From: a virus | Strand: one strand, 5' to 3' | IMG/VR virus record: IMGVR_UViG_3300031364_000012 | Coordinates: 1-26,930 of that record | DNA length: 26,930 nt | Translations under genes and position numbers: made by a program | Notes under the pieces: generated by a model | Databases searched by the model: none | Told to the model about the DNA's origin: nothing | What the model saw: the letters and a program-made list of their open reading frames with translations, nothing else | Shown: one piece after another, positions 21,201-26,218 of the stretch | Numbering within the stretch: the first letter of the stretch is position 1 | How the letters are laid out: every line of letters begins with the position of its first letter

Positions 21201-21454
21201 CTGTGCGCAAGATGCTTGCTGCTGCAGGGCAGATGCGCGAGGCCCGACCAGATGATATGGAAGGAATGGAGCGGGCTTATGAGGAAATGGTTGGTGCGAT
21301 GAAAAGCTCGTTTGAGACTTTTGTTCCTGGCGGATTGCAAGCAAGCCAATTGTATAAGGCGTATCAGGAGTATGGAACTGAAGGTTTGCCAAAGGCTATT
21401 CTTGGTCGTGCCCAGGATCAAGAGTTTGTTCCTTTCTGGGGACTGGGCGATTAG
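18239..21454 (+). CDS. Very large probable ejection protein (1071 aa)
   Basis: The largest gene in the window is a helical protein with several hydrophobic patches (LLWSFGTIWGKGVKPAV near residue 140; TGMQYSGLLGFRPFAMFRNL near 725; VSFVLSGALVEQGIEWWAG near 950) and a SFNSWWMNYGHLIHKWVR block. No lytic transglycosylase motif was recognised at the N-terminus, unlike T7 gp16. Length, late position and hydrophobic repeats fit a protein injected to carry DNA across the cell envelope. The start is the ATG overlapping the previous stop; an in-frame GTG at 18230 is the alternative. Palindrome copy 4 lies at codons 28-32. The stop overlaps the opposing gene. Confidence 0.7.
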   Translation: MRVVEPEGEEGGRSIRVVSPDELSSSYVSLNEADLVAMKKPELFGWEKAWDQAAKQASAAMEQVAQERGSFGRPTAELLWGDPISWSHQLGPREASTALSMVPFAKYLMPSERRFYEEASTEEKNEAMLWESFGVLLWSFGTIWGKGVKPAVKAMSKWRKARSLMEIKPVEEAIEAISTKRGFWKGFDFKQSAQKVLGGKRFGFAKDEAAGLARYAENPTSPVLKVVEYEKGLAGKPMSKAWKDYVKRTSGAMYGGPTPAEEVIKALDYSTLQSKHYASVYRENLKMLGFNMPHAEAVLKAQAGKFFGSEAAKHIKFATLSIDESANLISNMLAPEGQKFLRAVHTLGSDRYILPWFNPVRSVMGAGESVWGTMSKVFEPLRQIKLNVGTYKTNKMVTFLKMLDERGFGKLTVKDGIPKFAANKEVWTKPILEEAASLMRKADTLAEMGRKGLVNKEVAVRTIEESLKRTRESSPVVAQLVDAVYDYHNLLYKDLLTKWLPKVFHSTGLTPRGAALVGQLGGKLGPKIDAVFASSTGLTHLERSSAVKQILAKYRALLKTNGVFALEGKELEKAVGEVGKRLSYGKEFGFPAYLSYYFPRMRQAGAAMETNWSLALAGEAGFMRTRKLPVPQDVITDLSKMIELRTTQMAKQLYFYDDVGKVVEYAKTLPQSWKLHTESVISRAVGRPSVLDEFVANVLQKTPLAGNWDAYRAMRAARVITGMQYSGLLGFRPFAMFRNLTQPYLTVGTDLGGGIFDHVAVAKGTALAATKEHRKYIQSIGAITEYMPDQVAGRMLPGAKGILPSSDSVRDAFMSMFQMSDRWNRYVSGGAAVAKWDGAMSRAGGNMAKFLRKVKLDARQPWVRDQIENLLHLGKTEEAKAAFVKDVISDTQFLYGTLEAPMALGRGGAPRMITSFNSWWMNYGHLIHKWVRTGDASTKVSRMVSFVLSGALVEQGIEWWAGRDRAVATTFLGPFPLGGFGTPPALEPVRKMLAAAGQMREARPDDMEGMERAYEEMVGAMKSSFETFVPGGLQASQLYKAYQEYGTEGLPKAILGRAQDQEFVPFWGLGD
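18322..18334 (+). repeat. Palindrome TTCATTWAATGAA, copy 4
   Basis: Perfect copy (centre A on the plus strand), 83 nt downstream of the start of the 1071 aa gene. It is read in frame as part of VSLNEA. This is the copy farthest inside a coding region. Confidence 0.9.
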
Positions 21455-21873
21455 TCAAACCTCATGGTGAGACCGATGGAGTAGTTGTTGACAACACAAG
21501 TTGCGCTGACGCTGATTGAGATTGCCTGCCAAATTCCCCTTGGATGCCATTCAAAACCAAAGGTTCTGGCCTTCTTAGGAAGAAGTTGTGTTATAACTGG
21601 ATGAAGCAAGGCGCTGAGGGCCATGTAAGTATCCACTTGACTTGTTGATGGATGAGAACCAATGATTGGATTGAGTTCATAGTAATTGTCTTCCTTTGTA
21701 ATATTCCTTGTAGTACCCCAATCAACCATGTGTAAGACTTCCCAAGTAGCCTCGAGGATGATGTCCTCCTTGGCCCACTGGTCGGCCAGAGTGGGGCTTG
21801 TCGCGACAAGCAATAGTGCGCAAGCGATCCAGATTGATTTCATTAAATGAAGATTACGAGTAGAGTACGTCAC
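21451..21873 (-). CDS. Secreted or envelope protein (140 aa), unknown
   Basis: Residues 1-30 form a signal peptide: MTYSTRNLHLMK, hydrophobic SIWIACALLLVATSP, and a TLA-D signal peptidase I site after residue 30. The mature part has a WEVLHMVDWGTTRNI segment, a YYELNPIIGSHPSTSQVDTY block and a hydrophobic C-terminal half (ALSALLHPVITQLLP; WQAISISVSATCVVNNYSIG), so it may be membrane-associated. I recognise this pattern as a recurring phage/bacterial hypothetical protein without known role. The start is GTG 21873, preceded by AGGAGGA at 7 nt. ATG 21843, inside the palindrome, has no ribosome site. It overlaps the upstream gene by 20 nt and the opposing gene by 4 nt. Confidence 0.78.
   Translation of the reverse strand: MTYSTRNLHLMKSIWIACALLLVATSPTLADQWAKEDIILEATWEVLHMVDWGTTRNITKEDNYYELNPIIGSHPSTSQVDTYMALSALLHPVITQLLPKKARTFGFEWHPRGIWQAISISVSATCVVNNYSIGLTMRFD
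21839..21851 (-). repeat. Palindrome TTCATTWAATGAA, copy 5
   Basis: Perfect copy (centre A on the plus strand, T on the coding strand), 22 nt downstream of the GTG start of the secreted 140 aa protein gene. It encodes LHLMK, exactly as copy 1 does in the other exported protein. Confidence 0.9.
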
Positions 21874-23104
21874 TGTCTTTTCCTCCTATCCAAGTAATTG
21901 ATTCTTCTGTCTTCTGTCCTTCGATGGTATGAAGTCCTCGTTTGATAATACGCATTGTCTCGAGGGTGTCAAGCGCAGCCTCAACGGTTTCGCGTGGAGT
22001 ACGTCCGGCGCTGCCATGACGCCAATTGAGACGCATGAGTGTTGTTATGTCTGTTTGGCCAAGGGTTCGAATTTGAGTGCAGATGCGACGAATGTCCTCG
22101 CCAAAGACGTTGGAACCTTGAGAGCCAAAGGCTTTCGGTGCCTCGATTAGGACTTGCTCGCAAAGTAGGATGGCGTCTCTTATGTCCTCTTCTTCTATGA
22201 CAAGGGAATCCTTCTTTGCTACGTGCAAGCACATTGCCGTTTTGATGGAGATTATGTGAATACGGGCAAGGTATGCATGGAGGCGCTCATCGTAAGTTGC
22301 AGAGTAGAGTTTGTCGATTTTGTAGTTGTACCAGTTGTCAAAGTACTTTCTTGCCTCTGGTGCCCAGGTGAATTCTCCAGCTATGGAATGGATTATTTTC
22401 AGGTCGTGGACCAGATCTGGGCATAGAGGTACTACTGGTGGAATGGGAACTTTCTTGTAGGCTTTGTCAGCAAAGACTATTACGCAGCGCGAAGTCCAGC
22501 CACCGCCAATGGCCTCTGCGGGAAGGTTGTTCGACATCCAAGTTGGGGTTGTGGCCAAATAGCACGTTGTGTAAGGAGCTACGATGAAGTCTTCGCCGGA
22601 CTTGCTGGTCTTGTAGACCCACTTTTCATGGAAGTCGAAAAGGTCGGTCAGCGCTTCGATCATACCTTTTGGATCTACGGCAAGGAAGGAGGAGAGTTCT
22701 GATGAGGCGATGATGATTGGAGACTGGGTTCTGTTGTGAAGTACTCCCTTTTCATCTCTCATTTGGTACATACGTCTTCCACCAATTTCACTCATCTGCT
22801 GGGTGAGCGCACGTTTAGTTGGAGAGTCAACGAACAGTTCTGCTGCGATTCCTTCCTTGCCGAGAAGCTTTTTGGCAAAACTTACCGGAGGGCCTTTGCG
22901 GGCTTTGCCCGGAGGACCGACACTGATTATGTAGAGGTTGGGGAGCAAGGGATCGACACCGTAAGGGAGCCAAACTTTGCGTTCCAGCGCGGAGCTGATG
23001 CAGAATAGTCCTGACCAAAGCCAAAAGGAACGAGCTGACTCTGTGTCCTCTACATGTTGTGCGAGTGCATGGAGCCAATTAGAAAACTTGCGTTTAGTTG
23101 CCAT
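21854..23104 (-). CDS. DUF3987/helicase-like NTPase
   Basis: A probable replication or recombination ATPase of 416 aa. LLPNLYIISVGPPGKARKGP (residues 53-72) is a strand plus P-loop in which the usual GKS/T is replaced by RKG, a variant I associate with phage DUF3987-type proteins. IIIASSELSSFLAVD (131-144) looks like the Walker B/acidic strand. CYLATTPTWMSNNLP (181-195) fits a sensor strand and GGGWTSR (201-206) an arginine-finger loop. Residues about 330-400 read as a C-terminal winged helix (DITTLMRLNWRHG; VEAALDTLETMRIIKR). The start is ATG 23104; an upstream TTG lacks a ribosome site. It lies downstream of polymerase and MazG genes. Confidence 0.68.
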   Translation of the reverse strand: MATKRKFSNWLHALAQHVEDTESARSFWLWSGLFCISSALERKVWLPYGVDPLLPNLYIISVGPPGKARKGPPVSFAKKLLGKEGIAAELFVDSPTKRALTQQMSEIGGRRMYQMRDEKGVLHNRTQSPIIIASSELSSFLAVDPKGMIEALTDLFDFHEKWVYKTSKSGEDFIVAPYTTCYLATTPTWMSNNLPAEAIGGGWTSRCVIVFADKAYKKVPIPPVVPLCPDLVHDLKIIHSIAGEFTWAPEARKYFDNWYNYKIDKLYSATYDERLHAYLARIHIISIKTAMCLHVAKKDSLVIEEEDIRDAILLCEQVLIEAPKAFGSQGSNVFGEDIRRICTQIRTLGQTDITTLMRLNWRHGSAGRTPRETVEAALDTLETMRIIKRGLHTIEGQKTEESITWIGGKDSDVLYS

Positions 23105-23128
23105 TGTCGACTTTCTATGCAAGAAGGA

Positions 23129-23602
23129 TTAGCGCGAGGTTGGGGCTATCTCAAGGTATGCATCACCCAGGTATTGGGTGCAGCGCCAGCAACTAATTGC
23201 ATCGGATCTGTTAATGGCTGCACATTTTGGGCAGAGCACTGTTCCAGATGGCGCTGATCCAACAGATTCCATTTCTAATGGTGTAGCTCCAACAGGCTCC
23301 TTTTGTTCTTCCTCCTTAACAAACTTTCCATCTATCATCTTGCCTTTGCGATCTTTGATCTCGCTCCATGCATGAGCAAGGCATTGCTCCAAATGATACC
23401 CGAACATGTGGGAGAGGTTGGTTAGGACGACGATGCAGTCGCCTACAGCGTCTTTGACTTCGGTGCGATCTCGCTTATCAATGGCGAGTTTGAGTTCGTT
23501 CATTTCTTCCTGAAGCTTTTCGTATTGCTTTTCCACAGTTGAATAGGCGAAGATGCCCCGTTCTGCTGACCAGTTAACGATGTCTTTGAGTAGGTGATCC
23601 AT
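23129..23602 (-). CDS. MazG-like nucleotide pyrophosphohydrolase with C-terminal zinc ribbon
   Basis: MazG-type enzymes hydrolyse NTPs or dNTPs to monophosphates. The first 95 residues hold the metal-binding pattern EExxE (E32, E33, E36 in KLQEEMNELK) and ExxD (E48, D51 in TEVKDAVGDCIVVL), followed by the AWSEIKDRKGKMIDGKFVK ending typical of phage MazG-like proteins. After an acidic Pro/Gly linker comes a four-Cys zinc ribbon (C124-x2-C127 and C138-x2-C141). The added ribbon is unusual for such a short enzyme. GGGAG lies about 8 nt before the ATG. It is between the polymerase and the NTPase genes, consistent with control of the nucleotide pool. Confidence 0.82.
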   Translation of the reverse strand: MDHLLKDIVNWSAERGIFAYSTVEKQYEKLQEEMNELKLAIDKRDRTEVKDAVGDCIVVLTNLSHMFGYHLEQCLAHAWSEIKDRKGKMIDGKFVKEEEQKEPVGATPLEMESVGSAPSGTVLCPKCAAINRSDAISCWRCTQYLGDAYLEIAPTSR

Positions 23603-23626: not shown

Positions 23627-26218
23627 TTAGGTTTGGTTAGGTTCGAACTCGTGCAGTTCTCCCCAGTTGGCTCCGGCTTTGAACTCTGCAGGGATGATGA
23701 GTTCTCTGCCTTTTATCGTAAGTGGTATCTCCATTGCAGCTTTGATTCTTGGTATTGACCAAGCGATAAGATGTGGTGCTATCTGAGTTACAACTTCGTC
23801 GTGCACGTTGAGAAGGATTTGGATTTTTGGTTCGTAGTTCTCGAAGATTGTTTCTATTCCTTGCTCAACGATTTCGCCTACAGTGTTTTGTGGAGAGAAG
23901 GCATAGGCTGCTTTCCAAAGATTGTTGTTGAAGCGACCTTGGAACACACGTCTTCTTCCAAAAGAACTGGTTAGAGTGCGTGTTGCGCGGAGTTGTTCTT
24001 GGATTCCCCTATGCCATTCACGGAGCAAAGGCTTGCTGGAAAGGCGACCTTCGAGTAGCTGGTTGCACACCGCGTATGGAAGGACAAAGCCTTGACGAGC
24101 CAGGCTCATCTGGAATTGCTTTGGCCCCATGCCATAGGAGACGCCGTATTCGATCTCCTTTCCCATTTGTCGAAACTCAAAGTGGGTGAACTCATCTCCA
24201 GTTAGGTAGAACTTTGCCATTTCCTTAAGCTTGCCATAGGAAAGTTCGTCAGGGAATTGAAAGATTTCCTTTGCATTTTCCCAGTGGATGTTACATGTTG
24301 GATCGAGGAAGCGGTTGATCATGCGCAAGTCTTCTGATTCCCATGCAACAACACGAGCCTCGGCTTGGGACAAGTCAGATGCAAGCATGAGCATCTTTCC
24401 ATTGACCAGCGTCGAAGCGACTTTTGGACCAGCGACCTTGGTGACAAGGGCTACGATCTTTTCCCATTCCTCTGGAGGGTAAGGTTCCATGTCATCTGTG
24501 ATGAACATGGTTCGAATTGCTCGACCTTCGTCAGAACGCACTGGGATGTTTTGAAGGTTTCCTCCCGCGCCAAAGTGACTTTCTGAAGAGGACAAGCGGT
24601 ATGTTGAGACAAAGCCATAGGATGTACGGACACGTCCGTCTGTGTTCATTTCCATTGAGGCATAGGTGGAATGGAGCTTGGAAAACTTCTTATACTCCAT
24701 GATCTGTTGAATGACCTCTTCGCCAGGGTACAAACGCTTCAGCTTCTGCATTGCATCTTTATCTGCGGTGAGCGGTTGGTCTTTCTTTTTAAAATTCCTT
24801 TGCGGCTTGAAGTTGTGCTTGTAGTAGAGAAGGGCGATGAGCTGTTTGGAAGAGTTTAAGTTTATGTATTCTCCTTCCATGCGGCAAACTGTCTGATGGG
24901 CGATGTTAGCTCTGTCGAAATACTCCTTTTCCAGCTCTGCTTTTCTTTCAACGTCCATTCGAACTCCACGAATTTGCATAGCGAGCAAGCTTGGCATAAA
25001 GCTCATGCTTCGTTTGTAACCTTGCCAGGTTCCCATTTGCGCAGCAATATCGCGAAGCTGCGGATGGATTTCCTTGGTGCAGGCGCAATCTTTTAAGTTG
25101 TATTCGAACTCGGCTTTGTCACCTCCACGCTTGCCATAGTTGACTTTGCCCTCGTCCTTGTAGTAGGCCTCCCAGGTGTACATGGAGGTAAGGGTTTCCA
25201 AGCTTTTTCTCATAGCTGGAAAACTTGCATGGTGCAGCCACATTGTGTCCTCGTAAGTCTTTGCATCAACGCGGAGCCCATAGTATTTGCCAAGAATGCT
25301 TAAGTCGTAGCCTCCATTTTGAAAGATCTTCTTTGCCTTTGGATTGAGGAAGTAAGCGGAGATAAGGCGAAGGAGCTGCGCCTCTTCTGCTGCGGTCCAT
25401 GCAAAGCGCTGCTGTCTTAGAAAAGGTACGACGAACCCATACTCTGGATTTGGTGCAAAACCAATACACCAAAGGATCGGCCCTTCTGGACCGTATAATG
25501 TCTCAATGTCAACTGAGCAGTCAATGCTTTCCCTGTTGAGCTTTTCCAATCGTGCGACCAGACCGCCAAAAGCCACATCGATATCAAGGTTCCGTTTAGG
25601 ACGTCTGATTTCCGCAAACTCGCCCTGAACCCGTATTCGCTCAAGGTCGCGGAGGAATAGTGGCAAAGCGTTGTTGGCAAGTTCTTTTTTAACTCCAATG
25701 AGTTTCTCTTCTGGCTCGCTGATAAGGCGAAGGACACCACTGGGGTGGAGAGTAACATAGACCTTGTATCCATCAACCAGTGTGCAGGGAAGAACACTCC
25801 CTCTCCATTTCCATACGCGCTTCTTGCCAGTGAGCACGAACATAGACTCGTATCCGAGGGCGACAATAAGATTCGGCCGTGGATCGAGTTCGATAAGCCA
25901 ATTACGAAGATTTTCAACATGTTCCCTTCCCTCCCAAGTAAGTATTGTCTTACGTTTGTCTTCAAAGAAGTAACCTGCATCGTTGCCTGGAGGCCGTTGG
26001 ACAAAGACATTGTTTAGCAGAACCTCGTTGCGCAGCAATCCTATCTGCTTGGCACAGCGAAACATGAATTGGCCGGCGCTGCCAATGAATGGCTCAAGTC
26101 CGTTGTCTTCTTCTTCTCCTGGGCTTTGCCCAATCATAAGAATCTTTGCGTCCAGCGGACCGGAGGGTGGAACGATGTTAGTGGTAAGGCGCTCTGGTGC
26201 TGAGTTTTGTTCGTTCAT
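23627..26218 (-). CDS. Family A DNA polymerase with N-terminal UDG-like domain
   Basis: Replicative polymerase, 863 aa, in three parts. Residues 25-165 are uracil-DNA-glycosylase-like (family 4/5): GQSPGEEEDNG (30-40), NNVFVQRPPGN (69-79) and LHPSGVLR (157-164). The 3'-5' exonuclease keeps D237/E239 (VDIE), D305 (NGGYDLS) and Y373/D377. The polymerase has motif A DLSQAEAR (D615), motif B R683/K687/Y691 (RQMGKEIEYGVSYG) and motif C VHDEV (805-809). About 35 extra residues (574-609) lie before motif A. The UDG part lacks the four Fe-S cysteines, and Gln31 replaces the motif-1 Glu. AAGG lies 8 nt before the ATG; palindrome copy 6 lies just upstream. Confidence 0.93.
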   Translation of the reverse strand: MNEQNSAPERLTTNIVPPSGPLDAKILMIGQSPGEEEDNGLEPFIGSAGQFMFRCAKQIGLLRNEVLLNNVFVQRPPGNDAGYFFEDKRKTILTWEGREHVENLRNWLIELDPRPNLIVALGYESMFVLTGKKRVWKWRGSVLPCTLVDGYKVYVTLHPSGVLRLISEPEEKLIGVKKELANNALPLFLRDLERIRVQGEFAEIRRPKRNLDIDVAFGGLVARLEKLNRESIDCSVDIETLYGPEGPILWCIGFAPNPEYGFVVPFLRQQRFAWTAAEEAQLLRLISAYFLNPKAKKIFQNGGYDLSILGKYYGLRVDAKTYEDTMWLHHASFPAMRKSLETLTSMYTWEAYYKDEGKVNYGKRGGDKAEFEYNLKDCACTKEIHPQLRDIAAQMGTWQGYKRSMSFMPSLLAMQIRGVRMDVERKAELEKEYFDRANIAHQTVCRMEGEYINLNSSKQLIALLYYKHNFKPQRNFKKKDQPLTADKDAMQKLKRLYPGEEVIQQIMEYKKFSKLHSTYASMEMNTDGRVRTSYGFVSTYRLSSSESHFGAGGNLQNIPVRSDEGRAIRTMFITDDMEPYPPEEWEKIVALVTKVAGPKVASTLVNGKMLMLASDLSQAEARVVAWESEDLRMINRFLDPTCNIHWENAKEIFQFPDELSYGKLKEMAKFYLTGDEFTHFEFRQMGKEIEYGVSYGMGPKQFQMSLARQGFVLPYAVCNQLLEGRLSSKPLLREWHRGIQEQLRATRTLTSSFGRRRVFQGRFNNNLWKAAYAFSPQNTVGEIVEQGIETIFENYEPKIQILLNVHDEVVTQIAPHLIAWSIPRIKAAMEIPLTIKGRELIIPAEFKAGANWGELHEFEPNQT

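Follow-up and report, generated by a model that had tools for sequence, protein, structure and literature searches.

A family-4-type uracil-DNA glycosylase domain with a changed motif 1 in a phage family A DNA polymerase

What does a uracil-DNA glycosylase (UDG) domain do on a phage replicative polymerase when the usual glutamate of its motif 1 is replaced and its Fe-S cysteines are missing? The question is raised by a single 863-residue open reading frame (ORF) at 23627–26218, on the minus strand of the 26,930-nucleotide stretch of viral DNA analysed here (IMG/VR record IMGVR_UViG_3300031364_000012; hereafter the window), which starts with ATG and has AAGGA upstream. Pfam finds UDG at residues 17–165 (E 3.7e-15), DNA_pol_A_exo1 at 280–390 and DNA_pol_A (1.8e-41), PHROGs assigns the ORF to phrog_17 (DNA polymerase), and the NCBIfam models for UdgX (4.6e-21) and family 4 UDG (6.6e-19) match its N terminus, each under its curated cut-off. 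The features of the locus are given below, the roles of the motif 3 Asn residues being taken from PMC5387724.

23627..26218, minus: fusion of UDG, 3′-5′ exonuclease and family A DNA polymerase, 863 aa
25715..26194, minus: N-terminal family-4-like UDG domain, residues 9–168 (PF03167; AF2 pLDDT 96.7; Z 22.5 to 1ui0)
26105..26131, minus: motif 1, G30-Q-S-P-G-E-E-E-D38 (Q31 codon 26126–26128)
25982..26011, minus: motif 3 region, N70...RPPGN79, with the uracil-binding Asn and the water-coordinating Asn kept and Q74 at an Fe-S Cys position
25922..25981, minus: lengthened loop, residues 80–99, replacing the Fe-S loop
25727..25747, minus: motif 2, H158-P-S-G-V-L-R164, kept
24989..25531, minus: 3′-5′ exonuclease domain with all catalytic acids (D237, E239, D305, D377)
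23639..24988, minus: family A polymerase domain (D615, R683, K687, Y695 and H806-D807-E808 kept; Y691 at the E. coli 762 position)
23129..23602, minus: MazG-like nucleotide pyrophosphohydrolase, downstream of the polymerase
21854..23122, minus: DUF3987 primase/helicase-like protein, a neighbour also in related phages

The catalytic residues of both the family A polymerase and its 3′-5′ exonuclease are intact, and the NCBIfam model for the aminoadenine polymerase DpoZ scores 25.9 bits against a cut-off of 500. Where the structural block meets the replication block lies a 140-aa ORF (21451–21873, minus) with a signal-peptide-like stretch and no match in Pfam or PHROG. In L137 (3236–4762) and L138 (3408–4955), the two closest relatives, a gene directly upstream of the polymerase encodes an N6/N4 DNA methyltransferase whose N terminus is ParB-like, at a spot that in the window's phage lies beyond the window end.

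The UDG-exonuclease-polymerase fusion is found in many phages, and the same order is seen in the phiLo polymerase (structure 9qhs), Bacillus phage SP-15, Mel-JY34, Herelleviridae and Brevundimonas phages; the initial annotation had suspected that the fusion might not be new, and the structure and database entries bear this out. UdgX database entries are titled 'Phage SPO1 DNA polymerase-related protein', and we found no paper describing 9qhs. The window differs from those fusions in belonging to an Fe-S-free lineage, in which the position of residue 762 is nearly always His, and in itself having Tyr762 and Gln31. What appears to be new is this lineage, its His762 signature, the count of independent active-site losses and a remnant of the domain in T5-family phages; the window is one member of the lineage with one private change.

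The UDG domain and its uracil pocket

Because a fold search with the full-length model returned polymerases and nothing on the UDG (residues 208–856 are Klenow-like, Z ~30), the UDG domain was folded alone with AF2, from an alignment of 35 sequences. The full-length model (pLDDT 81.6, pTM 0.72) does not fix how the UDG and the polymerase are arranged. The domain model (mean pLDDT 96.7, pTM 0.91) finds its best structural match in Thermus thermophilus UDGa (1ui0; Z 22.5, rmsd 2.1 Å, 168 residues), with further matches to Thermotoga TM0511 (1vk2; Z 21.5), UdgX (Z ~20.5) and 9qhs (Z 15.5), so that it superposes on both family 4 and UdgX, a comparison which the initial annotation had called for. 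Taken with the profile matches, the Z of 22.5 places the UDG assignment far beyond chance.

The motifs earlier reported in this domain, PGEEED, NxVxxRPPGN and HPS, are all found, as G30-Q31-S32-P-G-E-E-E-D, N70-V-F-V-Q74-R-P-P-G-N79 and H158-P-S. Residues E41, G42, E47, F54, N80, N89 and H155 of the Thermus enzyme correspond to Q31, S32, E37, F44, N70, N79 and H158 (numbering of PMC5387724). The pocket residues E37, F44, N70, N79, H158 and R164 are retained, the difference being limited to the motif-1 doublet. The domain thus shares with family 4 UDGs (1ui0, TM0511) the fold, this pocket, the uracil-binding Asn with RPPxN (N70, N79) and motif 2 HP[SA] (H158), and departs from them in having GQSPG where family 4 has GE[AG]PG (Q31-S32 for Glu-Gly/Ala), in lacking Fe-S cysteines at all four positions, in a loop about 10 residues longer and in its fusion to a polymerase. 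UdgX of Mycobacterium smegmatis, the top NCBIfam UDG match by E-value, is alike in fold and has a longer segment in the same place after motif 3; the window lacks its GEQPG, its Fe-S cluster and its KRRIH R-loop with the nucleophilic His109. UdgX-type cross-linking was considered and rejected, there being no R-loop His (none occurs in residues 80–99, and H100 aligns with the fourth cysteine).

The replacement of the usual motif-1 Glu by Gln31, which the initial annotation had pointed out, is real. It is part of a Glu-Ala to Gln-Ser doublet (E31Q, A32S; codons CAA AGC) that is private to the window's phage within its clade, Glu31 and Ala32 being present in 7/7 closest relatives and E31 in 129 of 153 fusions. 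Because the adjacent codons 31 and 32 are both changed relative to the sisters, Gln31 does not look like an obvious base-call error. In Thermus UDGa, E41Q reduces k2/Km from 2.4e5 to 2.7e2, about 900-fold, and leaves binding to uracil DNA undetectable, whereas in the E41Q-G42D double mutant activity is restored to ~1/5 of wild type (PMC5387724). Residue 31 therefore matters, but its effect hinges on the neighbouring residue, and the window has changed both. In light of the loss of k2/Km upon Glu to Gln substitution in the Thermus enzyme, weakened excision is a fair prediction, and the window's domain is expected to be poor at uracil excision, with a reduction that probably spans orders of magnitude.

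An Fe-S-free lineage and its active sites

As first reported, the Fe-S cysteines are absent: there is no N-terminal CxxC, and Gln74 and His100 occupy the third and fourth positions. The accompanying interpretation of this loss as decay is not supported by the relatives, because 148 of 153 full-length fusions lack the cysteine at position 74 and with it the cluster, most of them with a whole active site, and this state changes once on the exonuclease-polymerase tree. Q74 and H100 are invariant in the window's clade, and its seven closest relatives are likewise without Fe-S cysteines. Among 172 distinct UDG domains, E31, E37, N70, N79 and H158 are all kept in 133, and Cys occurs at position 74 in only seven, each of which also has the N-terminal CxxC; the complete five-residue set is present in 111 of the 153 fusions. 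The loop after motif 3 has a median of 20 residues in the fusions versus 10–12 in Fe-S family 4 references. By these comparisons, the cysteines were lost in an ancestor of a large phage lineage that is, as judged from its residues, mostly catalytically equipped. One close relative of the window, L140 (4923–8369), carries an intein exactly inside UDG motif 1 (GEAPG / CFTEES...FITGN / SDED); inteins favour sites such as motif 1, and its position fits a catalytically equipped lineage. Scored as 'lost' solely through this intein, L140 was dropped from the losses.

The nearest UDG domains are 65% (L011) and 62% (L012) identical to that of the window, followed by L013–L018 at 53–56%, with full-length identities of 46–57%. 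Short exact peptides of P0001 alone, searched against IMG/VR and GTDB, retrieved no relatives. Pattern-based scans favour an intact motif 1, and the counts of relatives are therefore not population frequencies. In L006, L008, L009, L105, L108, L110, L114, L116 and L130 the fusion is split into at least two ORFs with intervening sequence or genes, which suggests introns or homing elements, and a different fusion (L084, 4947–8315) has an intein in its polymerase domain (GKK / CVVGS ... VTGN / SNHSLNY).

The five catalytic positions show 22 changes of state on the tree of 153 fusions, a few of which may be alignment errors, and E31 alone shows 11; G122 and G140 are constant, and changes at R139 and P159 are rare. 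Among these relatives the active site has been altered about 20 times independently. Clear motif-1 changes occur in the window (Q), L039 (Q), L135 (Q), L144 (M), L183 (P) and L168 (S), and other clearly altered cases are the L101–L106/L119 group (VAEFPS, VTDAPS) and L004. In a clade of 14 with GARPG, whose members are 49–92% identical, Ala is fixed at motif 1 with N70 and H158 kept, and N70 or H158 has been lost in several lineages. None of 16 sampled phages with changed sites has a dUTPase or a second UDG (each has exactly one).

The domain nevertheless stays in place. In scans with the whole polymerase as query, the UDG was present wherever the contig included the N terminus of the locus. 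Identity between the window and its two sisters is 68% and 64% for the UDG, against 53% and 51% for the polymerase domain, and the UDG branch length relative to that of the polymerase, compared between window and sisters, gives a ratio of 1.04 (95% 0.63–1.67), from which the window's UDG is judged not to be a decaying domain. To call it degenerate, as was done initially, is only partly right: Gln31 and the missing cysteines are real, but the rest of the pocket is intact and the constraint on the domain is not relaxed. The persistence of fold and attachment while the active site is repeatedly altered argues for a function independent of excision.

Polymerase signatures and remnants of the domain

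Of the 137 aligned fusions, 132 are Fe-S-free, and 126 of these have His where E. coli Pol I has F762; the five Fe-S fusions have Phe. Three fusions have Tyr there, among them the window (Y691, 24146–24148). Only Phe, Tyr and Leu types were described at this position in virioplankton (PMC6302109). The second acid of polymerase motif C (E883; E808 in the window) is Ser in 96 of the 137, Glu in 21 (including the window) and Ala in 14. Losses of Glu31 and of His762 at first seemed linked (three of four non-His members), but the link weakened as relatives were added and is not claimed: the association (Fisher p 0.01) is uncorrected for descent, and the clade with Ala31 and His762 is a counter-case.

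More eroded forms of the domain are found in other phages. The polymerase of Gordonia phage Biskit has an N-terminal UDG remnant without motif 1 (E 7.8e-18; profile match 97.8%). The N terminus of T5-family (Demerecviridae) polymerases, the region before the exonuclease, matches the UDG profile with a probability of 94.4% and a score of 50.8 (L348, L351–L353), compared with maxima of 22.1 for 100 column-shuffled versions and 14.5 for four other profiles from the same alignment, and Biskit itself matches at 85.5%. In addition, Foldseek weakly matches the window's UDG model to a predicted polymerase structure from Escherichia phage Gostya9 (Tequintavirus; E 2.6e-3). Pfam detects no UDG in the T5-like polymerase, and the phiYS40 polymerase has none. 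These matches suggest that the N terminus of T5-family polymerases is UDG-derived and far more decayed than the window's domain, motifs 1 and 3 being unrecognisable. We know of no earlier report of a link between T5 and UDG, within a literature search restricted to open papers. Andraos reportedly found in 2004 that removal of the first 30 residues of T5 polymerase has little effect on processivity.

What the domain may do for the polymerase

We favour, with a probability of roughly 0.5, the reading that the domain mainly grips or scans DNA for the polymerase and that excision is weakened here. According to this proposal, a replicative family A polymerase would carry a fused, fully folded family-4-type UDG whose lineage lost its Fe-S cluster long ago, with the uracil pocket usually kept; in the window's phage, the change of Glu-Ala to Gln-Ser in motif 1 would have made uracil excision weak, and the domain would have been retained since its main task is not excision but gripping or scanning DNA beside the polymerase, in the manner of vaccinia D4. 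This is favoured because the active site has been altered repeatedly with the domain kept and because D4 is the nearest precedent: D4 is required for processive synthesis by E9, possibly via DNA scanning, and its glycosylase activity is dispensable for replication (PMC3946371). The likeness to the D4-A20-E9 holoenzyme lies in a UDG that serves a replicative polymerase and is an analogy, not homology of the assembly, D4 being a separate, catalytically active subunit that A20 joins to a different polymerase. Against a gripping or scanning role stand the complete active site of most relatives and the intein in motif 1 of L140, according to which excision probably matters in many of these phages, as well as the small effect reported for the T5 N-terminal deletion.

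It is rather unlikely, on our assessment, that the domain is an active UDG in which Q31-S32 forms an alternative doublet that still excises, the fusion coupling removal of misincorporated or deamination-derived uracil to replication. Gln is the natural residue at the motif-1 Glu position in family 1 UNG, every other pocket residue is kept and the site is complete in most fusions, so Q31-S32 might still work; GQSPGEEED recurs in fusions with all four Fe-S cysteines (L133, L134 and L135, with L134 and L135 being separate fusions), and one prokaryotic family-4-like UDG (L311) has GQNPGEEED. The recovery of the E41Q-G42D mutant also points this way (PMC5387724), but the window has Ser rather than Asp at the second position, E41Q alone is severely impaired, none of the seven closest relatives has Q31-S32, and excision on a single-stranded template would create abasic sites ahead of the polymerase.

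The initial annotation had proposed that the domain binds uracil or a modified base without excising it, as a sensor or clamp. The clamp half of that proposal fits the family-wide pattern, whereas sensing of uracil is not expected from the change, because binding of the E41Q mutant to uracil DNA was undetectable (PMC5387724), with the proviso that residue 32 is changed here too. A role in reading uracil or a modified template base without excising it, so as to pause or adapt the polymerase, would agree with the retention of the uracil-contacting N70 and H158 both in the window and in the clade whose motif 1 has Ala, with the UDG-like N domain of 9qhs, entitled 'phiLo family-A DNA polymerase with modified template', and with the DNA methyltransferase adjoining the polymerase in close relatives. 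We consider it quite unlikely, since the absence of N70 or H158 from several lineages means that base reading is not the general role, and 13 sampled relatives have no thymidylate synthase or PurZ-type adenylosuccinate synthetase. Replacement of a base throughout the phage genome was rejected on the same 13 relatives, which also lack dUTPase, although their records may be incomplete and this evidence is weak. A decaying domain that is carried along without function is very improbable: catalytic residues are indeed often altered in the family, and only remnants are left in T5 and Gordonia phages, but the window shows no increase in rate, its UDG is better conserved than its polymerase domain, and in the scans with polymerase queries no relative with its N terminus on the contig has dispensed with the UDG.

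Returning to the gripping or scanning role, we tentatively extend it to the family as a possible history, in which UDG became a part of replication in one large group of phage family A polymerases, lost its Fe-S cluster once and its active site many times independently, the window being one case, and persists as a remnant in the N-terminal extension of T5-like polymerases, with holding or scanning DNA as its constant job. The textbook example of a repair glycosylase that replication has taken over for a task other than catalysis is vaccinia D4. If our proposal is correct, a D4-like recruitment would have occurred in phages as well, inside a single polypeptide, and these polymerases would offer a natural series that runs from the intact Fe-S enzyme through Fe-S-free and single-residue-changed forms to those with erased motifs. 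The contribution of the UDG to the polymerase would be directly testable with small soluble proteins, and the N-terminal extension of T5 DNA polymerase, hitherto unexplained, would have an origin.
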